Source of the DNA: Taibaiella sp. KBW10
GTDB taxonomy: Bacteria > Bacteroidota > Bacteroidia > Chitinophagales > Chitinophagaceae
Length of the DNA stretch: 64,000 bases
Direction of reading: 5' to 3'
NCBI RefSeq assembly: GCF_003852495.1
Contig: NZ_QAJI01000003.1
Location: forward strand, 594,687-658,686
Below, in pieces: positions 27,263 through 31,786 of this stretch; the stretch's first letter is position 1, and each line of letters opens with the position of its first letter. Both the position numbers and the translations under genes were made by a program. Below the pieces are notes generated by a model. It was not told where the DNA came from, ran no database searches, and worked only from the letters and a program-made list of their open reading frames with translations.

Positions 27263-28111
27263 TTAATGTAAACTATACACCGCACCGATCATTCCATTTA
27301 CCTGTGCATATATAAAGTCCTGTTTTCCTCTTCCCTGAATCCCTTTTTTATGTAATATAATATCGGGCATATCAACGTATCCTGCTTTCGCTTCAAACCT
27401 GAAGGACAACTTTCTCAATACCGTAATCTGCACACCTGCTTTCAGGGTTGTGCCAAAACCCGATACATGAAATCGGTCATTACGCTCATAATCTAAAAGT
27501 GACGTGTTGGTCCGTGGTATCATCACTCCCAGCCCTAAACCATACAGGTAACCGATATGCAATTTCTGATCCCGTGTTTGGTATAGATCACCGAGCTTTT
27601 CCACTTCAATATTCAGATAGTTTAAACCATCTGTATGCTCAAAGGTCAAGAAATCGTCATAAATAACGGTATTCCCGTTATAAGTTCCCTGATACTTTCC
27701 CTCATGCTGAATGATCCCATCTACTTTTGCCGTCTGGTTCTGAACCATCACATACTTCATGTGATCAAAACCGGCAGTTATCGCCAGATCGTCTCGCAAA
27801 TAATAACCTACGCGCAGGTTTGTTTGCGGAATGGTGATCCTGTCGGCACGCAAATAATTATTCAGCCTTAAGGCACTGGGCCGGTCTGTCGCTTTCAATT
27901 TATGCAGGGTTAAATCATAATCCCCACCTTTAATTTTCAAAGTACTATTCGTGTACACTTCACGGTTCCAGCCCCAGTAGGCAAATACCGAGCCTTTCTT
28001 ATTCGCACTTGTTTTGCGTACGGGAGGGCTTTGAACAGCCTGTTCCTGCGCAAATAGTGTATTTGTTCCGGTAAGTAATAAAAAAAGAACTAAAATCTGT
28101 CTCGCTTTCAT
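27263..28111 (-). CDS. Outer membrane beta-barrel protein inside the nuo operon
   Basis: A 282-residue protein with a Sec signal peptide (…NTLFAQ) and a mature part of amphipathic strands with aromatic girdles (FAYWGWNREVYT, LRVGYYLRDDLAITAGFDHMKY, LHIGYLYGLGLGV, FGTTLKAGVQITV, LSFRFEAKAGYVDMPD). It ends VNGMIGAVYSLH, an OmpA/OmpW-like barrel finish. I do not recognise a named family. It sits between nuoF and nuoG on the same strand (47 nt after nuoF, 102 nt before nuoG) with no terminator seen, so it is probably transcribed with complex I. An outer membrane protein has no known place in that enzyme; its presence is unexplained. Confidence 0.7.
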   Translation of the reverse strand: MKARQILVLFLLLTGTNTLFAQEQAVQSPPVRKTSANKKGSVFAYWGWNREVYTNSTLKIKGGDYDLTLHKLKATDRPSALRLNNYLRADRITIPQTNLRVGYYLRDDLAITAGFDHMKYVMVQNQTAKVDGIIQHEGKYQGTYNGNTVIYDDFLTFEHTDGLNYLNIEVEKLGDLYQTRDQKLHIGYLYGLGLGVMIPRTNTSLLDYERNDRFHVSGFGTTLKAGVQITVLRKLSFRFEAKAGYVDMPDIILHKKGIQGRGKQDFIYAQVNGMIGAVYSLH

Positions 28112-28158: not shown

Positions 28159-29502
28159 TTATACGACCGGGCTTAAGGCATCTGCATAATGCGCCAGACC
28201 GAAATTACGGGTCTGTGCTTCTTCCGGATGCAATACGTGCCACTCAAATTCATCTCTGAAATGCCTGATGGCTGCTGCTACCGGCCAGGCCGCTGCATCG
28301 CCCAAAGGACAAATCGTATTGCCTTCTATTCTTCTTTGAATATCCCAAAGCAGATCGATGTCTTCCATCTTTCCTTTTCCGTACTCAATATTTTTCAGGA
28401 TTTTATACATCCATCCCGTACCTTCTCTACAAGGAGAGCATTGTCCGCAGCTTTCATGATTATAGAATCGCGCCAAGCTCATGGTATGACGCACCACACA
28501 CTGGTCTTCATCCAGTACTATAAATCCGCCTGAACCCAACATGGTTCCGGTCTGGAAGCCCCCTTCTGAGAGACTTTCGTAATTCATCAGGCGTTTATTA
28601 CCATTGGATTCGTGCAATAATAAATTGGTAGGCACAATGGGTACAGAAGAACCGCCCGGAATACAGGCTTTCATCTTTTTACCATTGGGGATACCCCCAC
28701 AATATTCGTCGCTATAAATAAATTCTTCTACAGAAAGGTTGAAATCGATTTCGTAAACACCGGGTTTATTGATGTTACCACAAGCAGAGATCAGTTTGGT
28801 ACCGGTACTTCTGCCTACACCCAGTTTTGCATATTCTTCGCCACCCATAGTGATGATGGGGCCAATGGCTGCAATAGTTTCTACATTGTTCACTACTGTA
28901 GGGCGCATCCACAAACCTTGTACTGCGGGGAATGGTGGTTTAATCCGTGGATTTCCGCGTTTCCCTTCCAGCGATTCGATCAGGGCCGTCTCTTCACCGC
29001 AGATATAGGCACCGCCACCGCGTTGCACATAAATCTCACAGTCAAAACCGGTTCCTTTTATGTTTTTCCCAAGCCATCCGTTCTCTTTGGCCTCGGCAAT
29101 GGCCTTTTCCAAAATATCCGGAATCCAGGCATACTCCCCGCGAATGTAGATATAGGAGGTATTAGAGCCTAAAGCAAAGCTGGAAATGATCATCCCTTCG
29201 ATAAACAGATGAGGTAAAAATTCCATAAGGTACCGGTCTTTAAAAGTACCCGGCTCCGACTCATCGGCATTACACACCAAGTGACGCGGTACGCCTTCCG
29301 GCTTGGCCAGAAAGCTCCACTTCATCCCTGTAGGGAATCCGGCTCCGCCACGACCACGCAATCCACTCTTCTTCACCTCTTCTACAATGTCTTCGGGCGC
29401 CATTTTTAAGGCTTTTTCTACACTGCTGTAGCCACCGTTTTTACGATAGACTTCATAGTGATGAATCCCTTCTATATGTGCTTTTTCTAACAGTAATTTC
29501 AT
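28159..29502 (-). CDS. nuoF: NADH-quinone oxidoreductase subunit F (NADH/FMN site)
   Basis: A 447-residue subunit that oxidises NADH through FMN and passes electrons to cluster N3. The glycine-rich FMN/NADH-binding motif GRGGAGFPTGMKW, the GAGAYICGEETALIESLEG-like segment (here GGGAYICGEETALIESLEG) and the N3 ligands in ESCGQCSPCREGTGW and NTICPLGDAA are all present. The ATG at 29502 is preferred: the frame extends to 29523 but only to a TTG, and MKLLLEKAHIEGI matches the family start. Confidence 0.96.
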   Translation of the reverse strand: MKLLLEKAHIEGIHHYEVYRKNGGYSSVEKALKMAPEDIVEEVKKSGLRGRGGAGFPTGMKWSFLAKPEGVPRHLVCNADESEPGTFKDRYLMEFLPHLFIEGMIISSFALGSNTSYIYIRGEYAWIPDILEKAIAEAKENGWLGKNIKGTGFDCEIYVQRGGGAYICGEETALIESLEGKRGNPRIKPPFPAVQGLWMRPTVVNNVETIAAIGPIITMGGEEYAKLGVGRSTGTKLISACGNINKPGVYEIDFNLSVEEFIYSDEYCGGIPNGKKMKACIPGGSSVPIVPTNLLLHESNGNKRLMNYESLSEGGFQTGTMLGSGGFIVLDEDQCVVRHTMSLARFYNHESCGQCSPCREGTGWMYKILKNIEYGKGKMEDIDLLWDIQRRIEGNTICPLGDAAAWPVAAAIRHFRDEFEWHVLHPEEAQTRNFGLAHYADALSPVV

Positions 29503-29563
29503 CTTAATATATTCAAAATTCAAAATGCCGGAGGGATCGACCCTGTATCGGCTTTTCTATTTA

Positions 29564-30412
29564 TTATTCACTTATTTTTACTGCCTTCCGGCTCCACAGC
29601 TGCAGCGTACCGTCAGTCTGGCTTTGCCACATTTCCAGTACCGATAGTTTCATATCAAAAGGATACTTTTCGAACTGGCCTTTTACCTTTATAGTACGCC
29701 TTATACGTACAAAATTCTGCTCCAAGGCCTCCTCTTCTATGGTTTCCCAGCGAATCTCGCTATAACTTACCTTACCACTTTCCAGATCGGCAATCAATGC
29801 ATTTTTATCCTGTACCCATCCGTTGGAATGCTCAATACGCGCATCCGGATGTACCAATACTTTTAACCGATCCACATCTTTATCAAGCATCGCATTATCC
29901 AGCGAAGCAAAATAAGACATTGGAAAATGGGCCTCTTCCCCATTGGTCTTAATCGTCGCGGACACCATGGCCGCTAAAGTCTTCGTCTCCGCTTCAGAAA
30001 GCCCACCTGTAATCTGCACCTCACCACCTTCTATCTTGCCCTGTACTACTGGTGCGATCAGCAACCGCTTATTAGCCATGACCAGTATCCTTTTCCCTAC
30101 ACTTTCTGCCGTTGCCTTTGCAAAGACCTTAGTACCTTCCGGTGTCAGCTTTAGTGTTACTGTATGCAAGTTAAAGTTTTCATCCCTGCCAGCTGTTGCC
30201 GAAGCAATGTGCTTATTCGTTATAATTGCCTCTTCCGGATTATAATAAAGCCGGGTTCCGCTTTGGGTATCGATAACAGAAGCCGCTCCTTTGGGTAATA
30301 CTTTATAAAATGCAATCCGTACTCCGTTTTGTGCGGTAACGTCAGTTATACCTGTTCCAAAAAAGAGGACCGTTAACAGCCAACAATAAAGACTAATGCT
30401 CCTTTTGCTCAT
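29564..30412 (-). CDS. Secreted SecD-P1-head / NTF2-like fusion protein
   Basis: An exported protein of about 282 residues. A signal peptide (…ITDVTAQ) is followed by a domain with the signature of the SecD P1 head: VTLKLTPEGTKVFAKATAE, VGKRILVMANKRLLIAPVVQ, IEGGEVQITGGLSEAETKTLA. In SecD this domain caps the translocon on the periplasmic side; here there are no transmembrane helices, so it is a free periplasmic unit. Residues from about 165 form an NTF2/DUF4440-like cone (LDNAMLDKDVDRLKVLVHPD, NALIADLESGKVSYSEI, VEMWQSQTDGTLQLWSRKAV-like end). The ATG at 30412 (or 30418) was chosen because the open frame to 30448 reaches deep into the VOC gene; even so, it overlaps that gene by 20 nt, implying translational coupling. 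Function unknown. Confidence 0.72.
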   Translation of the reverse strand: MSKRSISLYCWLLTVLFFGTGITDVTAQNGVRIAFYKVLPKGAASVIDTQSGTRLYYNPEEAIITNKHIASATAGRDENFNLHTVTLKLTPEGTKVFAKATAESVGKRILVMANKRLLIAPVVQGKIEGGEVQITGGLSEAETKTLAAMVSATIKTNGEEAHFPMSYFASLDNAMLDKDVDRLKVLVHPDARIEHSNGWVQDKNALIADLESGKVSYSEIRWETIEEEALEQNFVRIRRTIKVKGQFEKYPFDMKLSVLEMWQSQTDGTLQLWSRKAVKISE

Positions 30413-30815
30413 AATCATGATTGAACATCCAGTTAATACCGAATGCATCAGTCAACATACCAAATTTAGCGCCCCAAAAAGTATCGGCCAAAGGCATGGT
30501 TACCTGAGATCCTTCACTCATCGCAGCAAATACGCGATCGATATCTTCTACCTTAGTAAAGTTCAAGGACAAACTCACATTGGTACCCGCTACCACCGGA
30601 AATTTATCATCTACAATATCAGAAGCCATCAGGGTCAGATCACCTGCTTTAAAAGTAGCGTGCATGATCTTATTGCGGTTCTCTTCGGTTACTTCCTGAG
30701 GACTCTCTCCGTAAGTTTGGGCAAATAAGATTTGGCCATCTAAGGCTTTAGCATAGAAGTCAAAGGCTTCTTTAGCATTTCCGGCAAAATTCAAATAAGG
30801 TACAATTGCTTCCAT
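30393..30815 (-). CDS. VOC-family protein, PhnB-like
   Basis: A 140-residue protein of the vicinal oxygen chelate fold, PhnB-like branch: VPYLNFAGNAKEAFDFYAKALDG, MHATFKAGDLTLMASD, GSQVTMPLADTFWGAKFGMLTDAFGINWMFNHD. Such proteins include glyoxalase/dioxygenase relatives and resistance proteins; many have no known activity. Its end overlaps the start of the SecD-head/NTF2 gene. It lies within the nuo operon, 24 nt after the NlpE-like gene. No signal peptide. Confidence 0.85.
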   Translation of the reverse strand: MEAIVPYLNFAGNAKEAFDFYAKALDGQILFAQTYGESPQEVTEENRNKIMHATFKAGDLTLMASDIVDDKFPVVAGTNVSLSLNFTKVEDIDRVFAAMSEGSQVTMPLADTFWGAKFGMLTDAFGINWMFNHDYEQKEH

Positions 30816-30839: not shown

Positions 30840-31283
30840 TTAATGTTGTTTTATAAAAATATAGTTAGACGTGTTGGCTGTATTGAGTACACTACCATCA
30901 TCGGCTAACTGTAACAAGGTATCTTTTCCCATTTTGTAAAACACGGACTCACCACCCTGGTCGGTCAATTCCAACACATTATGCTGAATTACAAAGTGTC
31001 CGCTGTCCACTAAAGGTAAAAGCAGCCCGGTATCATTTACCGCCTTCGTACTGATGGCATAGGTATTGTCTTCTCTTAAGATGATACTGGTCTGTATGGC
31101 TTCGCAGGTGGCACAAGGTGTTTGCCCTGTATAGGTTCCTACCAAAGAATTATCCAAGACCGGCTTTGAAGTGGTCATGACGTTCTTTTCAGCCTTATTA
31201 TGCTCAGGACTGTCCGCTGCCTCGTCTTTACACGAGGTTATGGTCAAGGCAGCCAGAGATAATAGCATAAAAAATCGTTTCAT
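30840..31283 (-). CDS. NlpE-like lipoprotein
   Basis: A 147-residue lipoprotein (lipobox TITSC, Cys18). The mature domain opens with LVGTYTGQTPCATCEAIQTSI, the N-terminal NlpE/copper-resistance motif with a CxxC pair (C57, C60), followed by a small barrel (LREDNTYAIST, SGHFVIQHNVLELTDQGG). NlpE in enteric bacteria is an outer-membrane lipoprotein that senses surface contact and copper or redox stress; whether this short version does so is inference. It lies 8 nt after nuoE within the operon. Confidence 0.82.
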   Translation of the reverse strand: MKRFFMLLSLAALTITSCKDEAADSPEHNKAEKNVMTTSKPVLDNSLVGTYTGQTPCATCEAIQTSIILREDNTYAISTKAVNDTGLLLPLVDSGHFVIQHNVLELTDQGGESVFYKMGKDTLLQLADDGSVLNTANTSNYIFIKQH

Positions 31284-31291
31284 GAATTGTT

Positions 31292-31786
31292 TTAGTTTTT
31301 AGCAGCTGCTTTAAGCTCTTCAATTAATTGATCTACTTTTTCTATCGTTAAGTTTTCTTTGTAGAATTTACCTAACTGTAACATGGGTGCATAGCCACAG
31401 GCGCCAAGGCATTCTGCAGGCTTCAGCGTAAATAAACCATCGGCAGTAGTCTCTCCTTCTTTAATCTCCAGTTTATTTTTTATATGATCAATAATCTGGT
31501 CGCTGCCGCGCAGCATGCAGGGGCCTGTATGACAAACCTCTAATACATACTTCCCCACCGGTTTCATGTTGAACATGGTGTAAAAGGTAGCGACTTCGTA
31601 CACTTCAATAGGATTGATCTGCAACAAAGAAGCCACATAATCCATTACTGGCACATCCAGCCATCCCCCAAACGTTTCCTGTGCCAAATGCAGCAAAGGA
31701 ATTAAAGCCCCTTTCTGCTTTCCTTCCGGATAGCGTGTCATGATCTCGTTTGCCTTATCTAGTTTTTCCTGAGAAAACTGTATCAT
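31292..31786 (-). CDS. nuoE: NADH-quinone oxidoreductase subunit E
   Basis: A 164-residue thioredoxin-fold subunit with the N1a 2Fe-2S cluster held by C85, C90, C126 and C130 (CHTGPC and CLGACGYAPM). The N-terminal helical part (YPEGKQKGALIPLLHLAQETFGG-type) is complete. Works with NuoF and NuoG in the NADH module. Confidence 0.96.
   Translation of the reverse strand: MIQFSQEKLDKANEIMTRYPEGKQKGALIPLLHLAQETFGGWLDVPVMDYVASLLQINPIEVYEVATFYTMFNMKPVGKYVLEVCHTGPCMLRGSDQIIDHIKNKLEIKEGETTADGLFTLKPAECLGACGYAPMLQLGKFYKENLTIEKVDQLIEELKAAAKN

Follow-up and report, generated by a model that had tools for sequence, protein, structure and literature searches.

The fusion gene and its neighbours

The window, by which we mean the whole stretch of 64,000 nt analysed, comes from a soil-type bacterium and contains a gene encoding a 282-aa protein with a signal peptide, a SecD P1-head domain and a DUF4440 (NTF2-like) domain (Table 1). 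The gene order on this strand is nuoE, an NlpE-like gene, a VOC gene, the fusion gene and nuoF, where the nuo names are assigned by us from the sequences. The initial annotation had placed the gene between nuoE and nuoF; this is correct, the strict position within that interval being between VOC and nuoF. The ATG at 30412 yields the 282 aa, with the stop ending at 29564, and the previously noted 20-nt overlap with the VOC gene holds for this start. An alternative ATG lies upstream at 30448 and would give 294 aa. A scan for promoters and terminators was uninformative: it revealed no excess over shuffled sequences (24 versus 37.5 and 16 versus 13.4, respectively) and no minus-strand site in the spacer between the fusion gene and nuoF.

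Table 1. Features of the locus and one related locus. Positions are those of the window unless a locus is named.
Feature	Position	Strand	Basis or remark
nuoE	31292..31786	minus	Name assigned from sequence; order conserved in relatives
NlpE-like lipoprotein gene	30840..31283	minus	Pfam
VOC/YjdN-like gene, directly upstream of the fusion gene	30393..30815	minus	Pfam
Fusion gene (signal peptide, SecD P1 head, DUF4440), 282 aa	29564..30412	minus	
Signal peptide, residues 1-27	30332..30412	minus	Likely cut before Q28, site placed by eye
SecD P1-head domain, residues 52-152	29957..30259	minus	Pfam SecDF_P1_head (PF22599), E = 7.9e-20, 71.3 bits (curated cut-off 27 bits)
DUF4440 (NTF2-like) domain, residues 168-270	29603..29911	minus	Pfam DUF4440 (PF14534), E = 2.4e-10, 41.3 bits (curated cut-off 25.2 bits)
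Approximate counterpart of the cassette exchanged between G031 and G125	29840..30400	minus	Mapped by residue number
nuoF	28159..29523	minus	Name assigned from sequence
SecD P1 copy near secDF	L041 8993-10207		

The nuoF-nuoG gap, seen in the window and at loci L034, L035, L036, L037 and L228, is also variable. In the window, positions 27263-28111 encode a 282-aa exported protein without a Pfam match, G031, G125 and G101 carry a 126-aa ORF resembling a four-helix bundle, and G001 and G174 carry yet another ORF, all of these labels being given by eye.

The open reading frame and the three motifs quoted in the initial annotation were found in the translation, and both domains assigned there score above their curated Pfam cut-offs. 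In a single-sequence search of solved structures the protein matched SecDF 3aqo (E = 4.5e-9), and a profile of the eight known fusions matched 3aqo (E = 2.5e-18) and the NTF2-like 3fsd (E = 4.4e-6). The AF2 model has low confidence (mean pLDDT 51.8, pTM 0.43), because just two sequences could be used to build it. Its best Foldseek match among solved structures is the P1 domain of SecDF 3aqo (E = 2.3e-6), and its second half matches the NTF2-like 2r4i (E = 3.2e-4).

The peak of hydrophobicity over 19 residues corresponds to the N-terminal signal peptide (mean Kyte-Doolittle value 1.57 at residue 5), and by the same measure no strong transmembrane helix was found, the maximum past residue 45 being 1.14; on both points the earlier reading stands. 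The 282-aa protein lacks the P1 base and the RND-type transmembrane helices of a SecD translocon subunit, and the whole-protein SecD model gives it 52.6 of 244.4 bits, far under the cut-off. With so low a score, and with nothing strongly hydrophobic downstream of the signal peptide, the predicted protein is a SecD head without SecD. Its one cysteine (residue 10) is within the signal peptide, leaving the mature protein with none, and a thiol-based form of the redox role proposed earlier is thus unsupported. The core head residues GK, AP, GG and G, as well as the HSN motif of the DUF4440 part (residues 195-197), are invariant in all eight fusions.

Distribution and selection

Searching 394 Chitinophagaceae genomes with the eight-fusion profile gave full-length matches in eight: all five genomes of the window's genus and three of the four of a sister genus, g2. 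Within the family genomes surveyed the fusion is confined to these two genera. In a phylum sample of 395 genomes, only the window genome and G031 had full-length matches, and the remaining matches listed covered a single domain. One named record, with 72% identity, is that of Edaphocola flava HME-24, whose sequence is identical to G031, a genome placed in the window's genus, over 16.8 kb; Edaphocola is a member of the Chitinophagaceae. In each of the eight genomes the fusion is the sole strong hit of the DUF4440 profile; G240 has two more hits, both weak and partial. Viral contigs gave 44 pattern matches and no relative. Among the open-access papers listed, neither titles nor abstracts mention a free SecD head, a DUF4440 gene within a nuo operon, or this fusion.

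All eight fusions are located in the nuoE-nuoF interval, and this shared operon position argues that the architecture did not arise by chance. The fusion is absent from the fourth g2 genome, G174. There the nuoE-nuoF gap contains a 101-aa ORF (L229/L228), which resembles a RelE-type toxin by eye and occupies the fusion's site.

The dN/dS values of heads and DUF4440 domains in four pairs were 0.09-0.22, against 0.03 for nuoF; these Nei-Gojobori estimates are rough, as dS was often near or above 1. Together with the eight homologues, they rule out a spurious open reading frame. Between the window genome (G000) and G031, amino-acid identity is 64% for DUF4440, 78% for the head and 94% for nuoF. 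These comparisons indicate that the fusion protein is real and constrained, yet evolves faster than complex I.

Separate histories of the two halves

The window genome has two P1-head matches, SecDF and the fusion gene. The initial annotation had called a free exported head joined to such a domain unusual, but a free exported head is not unique: SecD heads outside SecDF were detected in several other Chitinophagaceae genomes, and another group of the phylum has three head-only exported proteins. Some are head-only exported proteins or lipoproteins (L038, L087, L091, L092), some have the head behind a DUF2059 region (L086 over the Pfam cut-off, L085 just under it; genomes G308 and G378), and others carry it inside longer proteins (L089, L093). 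There are also larger SecD-like copies (L040, L041, L094 and others), five of them within about 2 kb of secDF. The soluble or single-anchor P1 copies near secDF have frames of 360-428 aa and occur in G365, G215, G219, G091 and G214. None of the 17 loci of head proteins other than SecDF and the fusions, drawn from the Chitinophagaceae and one other group of the phylum, has nuo genes within the region covered, which reached up to about 10 kb on each side and was shorter at some loci.

A phylogeny of 46 heads places those of SecDF and five SecD-like P1 copies in one clade (99/91), which leaves out all eight fusion heads and all eight free heads. We therefore reject that the fusion head was copied directly and recently from the SecDF of the same cell. 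Six of the eight free heads group weakly with the fusion heads (83/82) and the other two fall elsewhere; the fusion heads share one origin in only 32% of the bootstrap trees, the alignment having 89 columns and the tree long branches. We consider with moderate confidence that the fusion head derives from the pool of free heads.

The DUF4440 half has a different distribution. For each of 99 genera besides the window's own, we took one genome and inspected the region preceding nuoF. A usable nuoF start was present in 91 of them (the exceptions being G014, G030, G037, G046, G054, G067, G075 and G095), and 82 of these also showed nuoE, nine regions being left out of the count because nuoE was not in view; the window's own genus is likewise omitted from the 82. 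An exported DUF4440 gene occupies the nuoE-nuoF gap in 31 of the 82 genera, 30 of them with a headless protein and one with the g2 fusion, which makes it the commonest occupant. The other contents, in classes that overlap, were VOC (10), NlpE-like (7), other genes (9) and a gap of less than 150 nt (29). In 23 of the 31 genera the DUF4440 gene lies 100 nt or less from nuoF. Altogether, the 106 regions contain 50 DUF4440 proteins in 45 regions, seven of them fusions, with tandem pairs in the gaps of G010, G019, G044, G068 and G073. An export signal fitting a simple signal-peptide pattern is present in 46 of the 50, and the remaining four have a hydrophobic N-terminus by eye. The fusion shares with this group both the nuoE-nuoF position and the export signal.

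A search with the window protein gave a similar picture, with 23 of the 24 best non-fusion DUF4440 loci adjoining nuoE and/or nuoF, a figure valid for the best matches fetched. Among the weaker matches, some are away from nuoF by their coordinates (e.g. G008, G016, G018, G080, G083 and a second G051 copy) and some beside it (e.g. G126, G073, G056). In a class sample of 149 genomes, 16 had matches to the DUF4440 profile, three of them in Chitinophagaceae and near nuoF; outside the family, none of the nine genomes having both showed a DUF4440 match beside nuoF. The linkage of DUF4440 to nuoF is thus a feature of the Chitinophagaceae. With exported DUF4440 genes in the gap of 31 genera out of 82, it is the DUF4440 half, not the head, that carries the link to complex I.

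Of the 52 rows in the DUF4440 tree, the eight from fusions make up a single clade (95/92; recovered in 94% of 200 bootstrap trees). This clade falls in a group that also includes 12 gap members (fork 91/95). The apparent nesting of the fused domains inside the gap family is only partly tested by this tree, which includes a single non-gap row and is rooted at its midpoint. Given the gap linkage of DUF4440, and free heads that are scattered and away from nuo genes, the probable course is that an older exported protein encoded in the nuo operon acquired a free head.

The initial annotation is therefore supported in part. Its domains and position stand, and the link to nuo genes that it expected from a genome survey is found in all eight fusions; for free heads no such link was seen at any of the 17 loci. 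It had missed that the operon link belongs to an older exported DUF4440 family, and that free exported heads make up a scattered group by themselves.

Proposed origin and function

Two papers that bear on the P1 head of SecD (PMC7793623, PMC11470409) describe it as a substrate-binding site that moves with proton flow, and also place it near the chaperone PpiD. The best explanation overall, to which we give a probability of roughly 0.45, is a chimera of single origin that is exported, has a peptide-binding head on an NTF2-like scaffold and is made with complex I. As the trees suggest, the chimera would have formed a single time, in the common ancestor of Edaphocola and the sister genus g2. The starting protein would have been an exported DUF4440 protein long resident in the nuoE-nuoF gap of the Chitinophagaceae, into which a P1-head module, coming from free exported heads and not from the cell's present SecDF, would have been inserted between signal peptide and DUF4440 domain. 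The product would leave the cytoplasm through Sec and lose its signal peptide to signal peptidase. Once in the periplasm, its DUF4440 domain may provide a pocket or a dimer scaffold, and the head may bind an extended polypeptide or a partner protein without a proton-driven motor. Because it would be translated together with complex I, the protein would probably serve envelope proteins whose load is linked to respiration, perhaps those portions of the complex I membrane arm that face the periplasm. From its domains and setting we infer a periplasmic binding or chaperone-like protein made with complex I.

The nuoE-nuoF position by itself is weak evidence for a role in complex I, since gap contents vary and the fusion is absent from G174. 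That the gene has stayed in the operon for so long speaks for a tie to complex I, and the mixed gap contents speak against it. Mere co-expression with complex I is a strong rival, because the gap also hosts unrelated genes: quite possibly the gap is a tolerant site in which small genes for envelope and stress functions settle and gain strong and steady expression, and the chimera works in the envelope independently of complex I. The recurrence there of VOC, NlpE-like and other unrelated families fits this, as do the likewise variable nuoF-nuoG gap and the loss or replacement of the fusion in G174. It accounts less well for DUF4440 being the commonest occupant, and for 23 of the 24 best relatives fetched having remained beside nuoE or nuoF although free to move.

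That the protein belongs to complex I itself, as an accessory or assembly factor on the periplasmic side whose DUF4440 domain docks on the outer face of the membrane arm, seems unlikely to us. Operon retention across the Chitinophagaceae, the export signals and the short distance to nuoF are all consistent with such a factor, but 51 of the 82 genera have no DUF4440 gene in the gap, and both domains evolve much faster than nuoF.

A further observation concerns the head. G031 and G125 represent two close species; over the 19.5 kb that surround the fusion gene their identity is about 97%, except in one segment of about 560 nt with sharp edges (L034 9354 to 9917), in which nucleotide identity drops to about 55%. 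This segment runs from the fusion-gene start to just before the HSN motif, thus covering signal peptide and head, and the other low-identity windows of the alignment are at its ends only. Synonymous sites in it are saturated (pS 0.84 versus 0.12 in nuoF), which indicates that it is an exchanged allele and not a product of fast change in place. Silent head cassettes were rejected as donor, as G000, G031 and G125 each have just two head matches. As background for the same pair, 176 of 188 ORFs could be compared over 219.5 kb (median identity 95.8%), and three of the 176 were mosaic by the same criterion: the fusion gene and two others that look exported by eye. The sharp replacement and the rarity of mosaic genes would fit an envelope protein that acts as a decoy or in an immunity-like way, its head being selected for diversity, but this is very improbable, as a single event was seen, exported genes may simply recombine more, the G000 and G031 heads are as alike as the operon average, and the core residues are conserved with low dN/dS.

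Returning to the single-origin chimera, a bolder version of it would be that complex I of the Chitinophagaceae has an exported NTF2-like accessory or assembly factor, which in Edaphocola and the sister genus carries a SecD head as a motor-free periplasmic peptide clamp with exchangeable alleles; we regard this as improbable. The data show that the substrate-binding head of SecD persists as an exported module outside the translocon, and offer a small soluble system for studying what this head binds. Moreover, a large bacterial family retains an exported protein family in its complex I operon, which makes the question of periplasmic accessory proteins of complex I testable.

Among known systems, the fusion shares profile and core motif, and in a low-confidence model also the predicted fold, with the P1 head of SecD/SecDF (PF22599; 3aqo, 3aqp, 5xan), but lacks the P1 base, the transmembrane helices and the SecF part, and is joined to DUF4440. 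With the gap DUF4440 proteins of the Chitinophagaceae it has position, export signal and HSN motif in common, and its domain groups with theirs in the tree with a single non-gap row, whereas those other than the fusions have no SecD head. CHU_1428 (2r4i) and 3fsd have the same DUF4440-type NTF2-like fold by profile, although the matched chains carry no head and, as aligned, 2r4i does not have the HSN residues. The free exported heads (DUF2059-head proteins in G308 and G378; head-only L087, L038 and L227) likewise combine an export signal and a head without the SecD membrane part; unlike the fusion, they have other partner domains or none and lie outside nuo operons.
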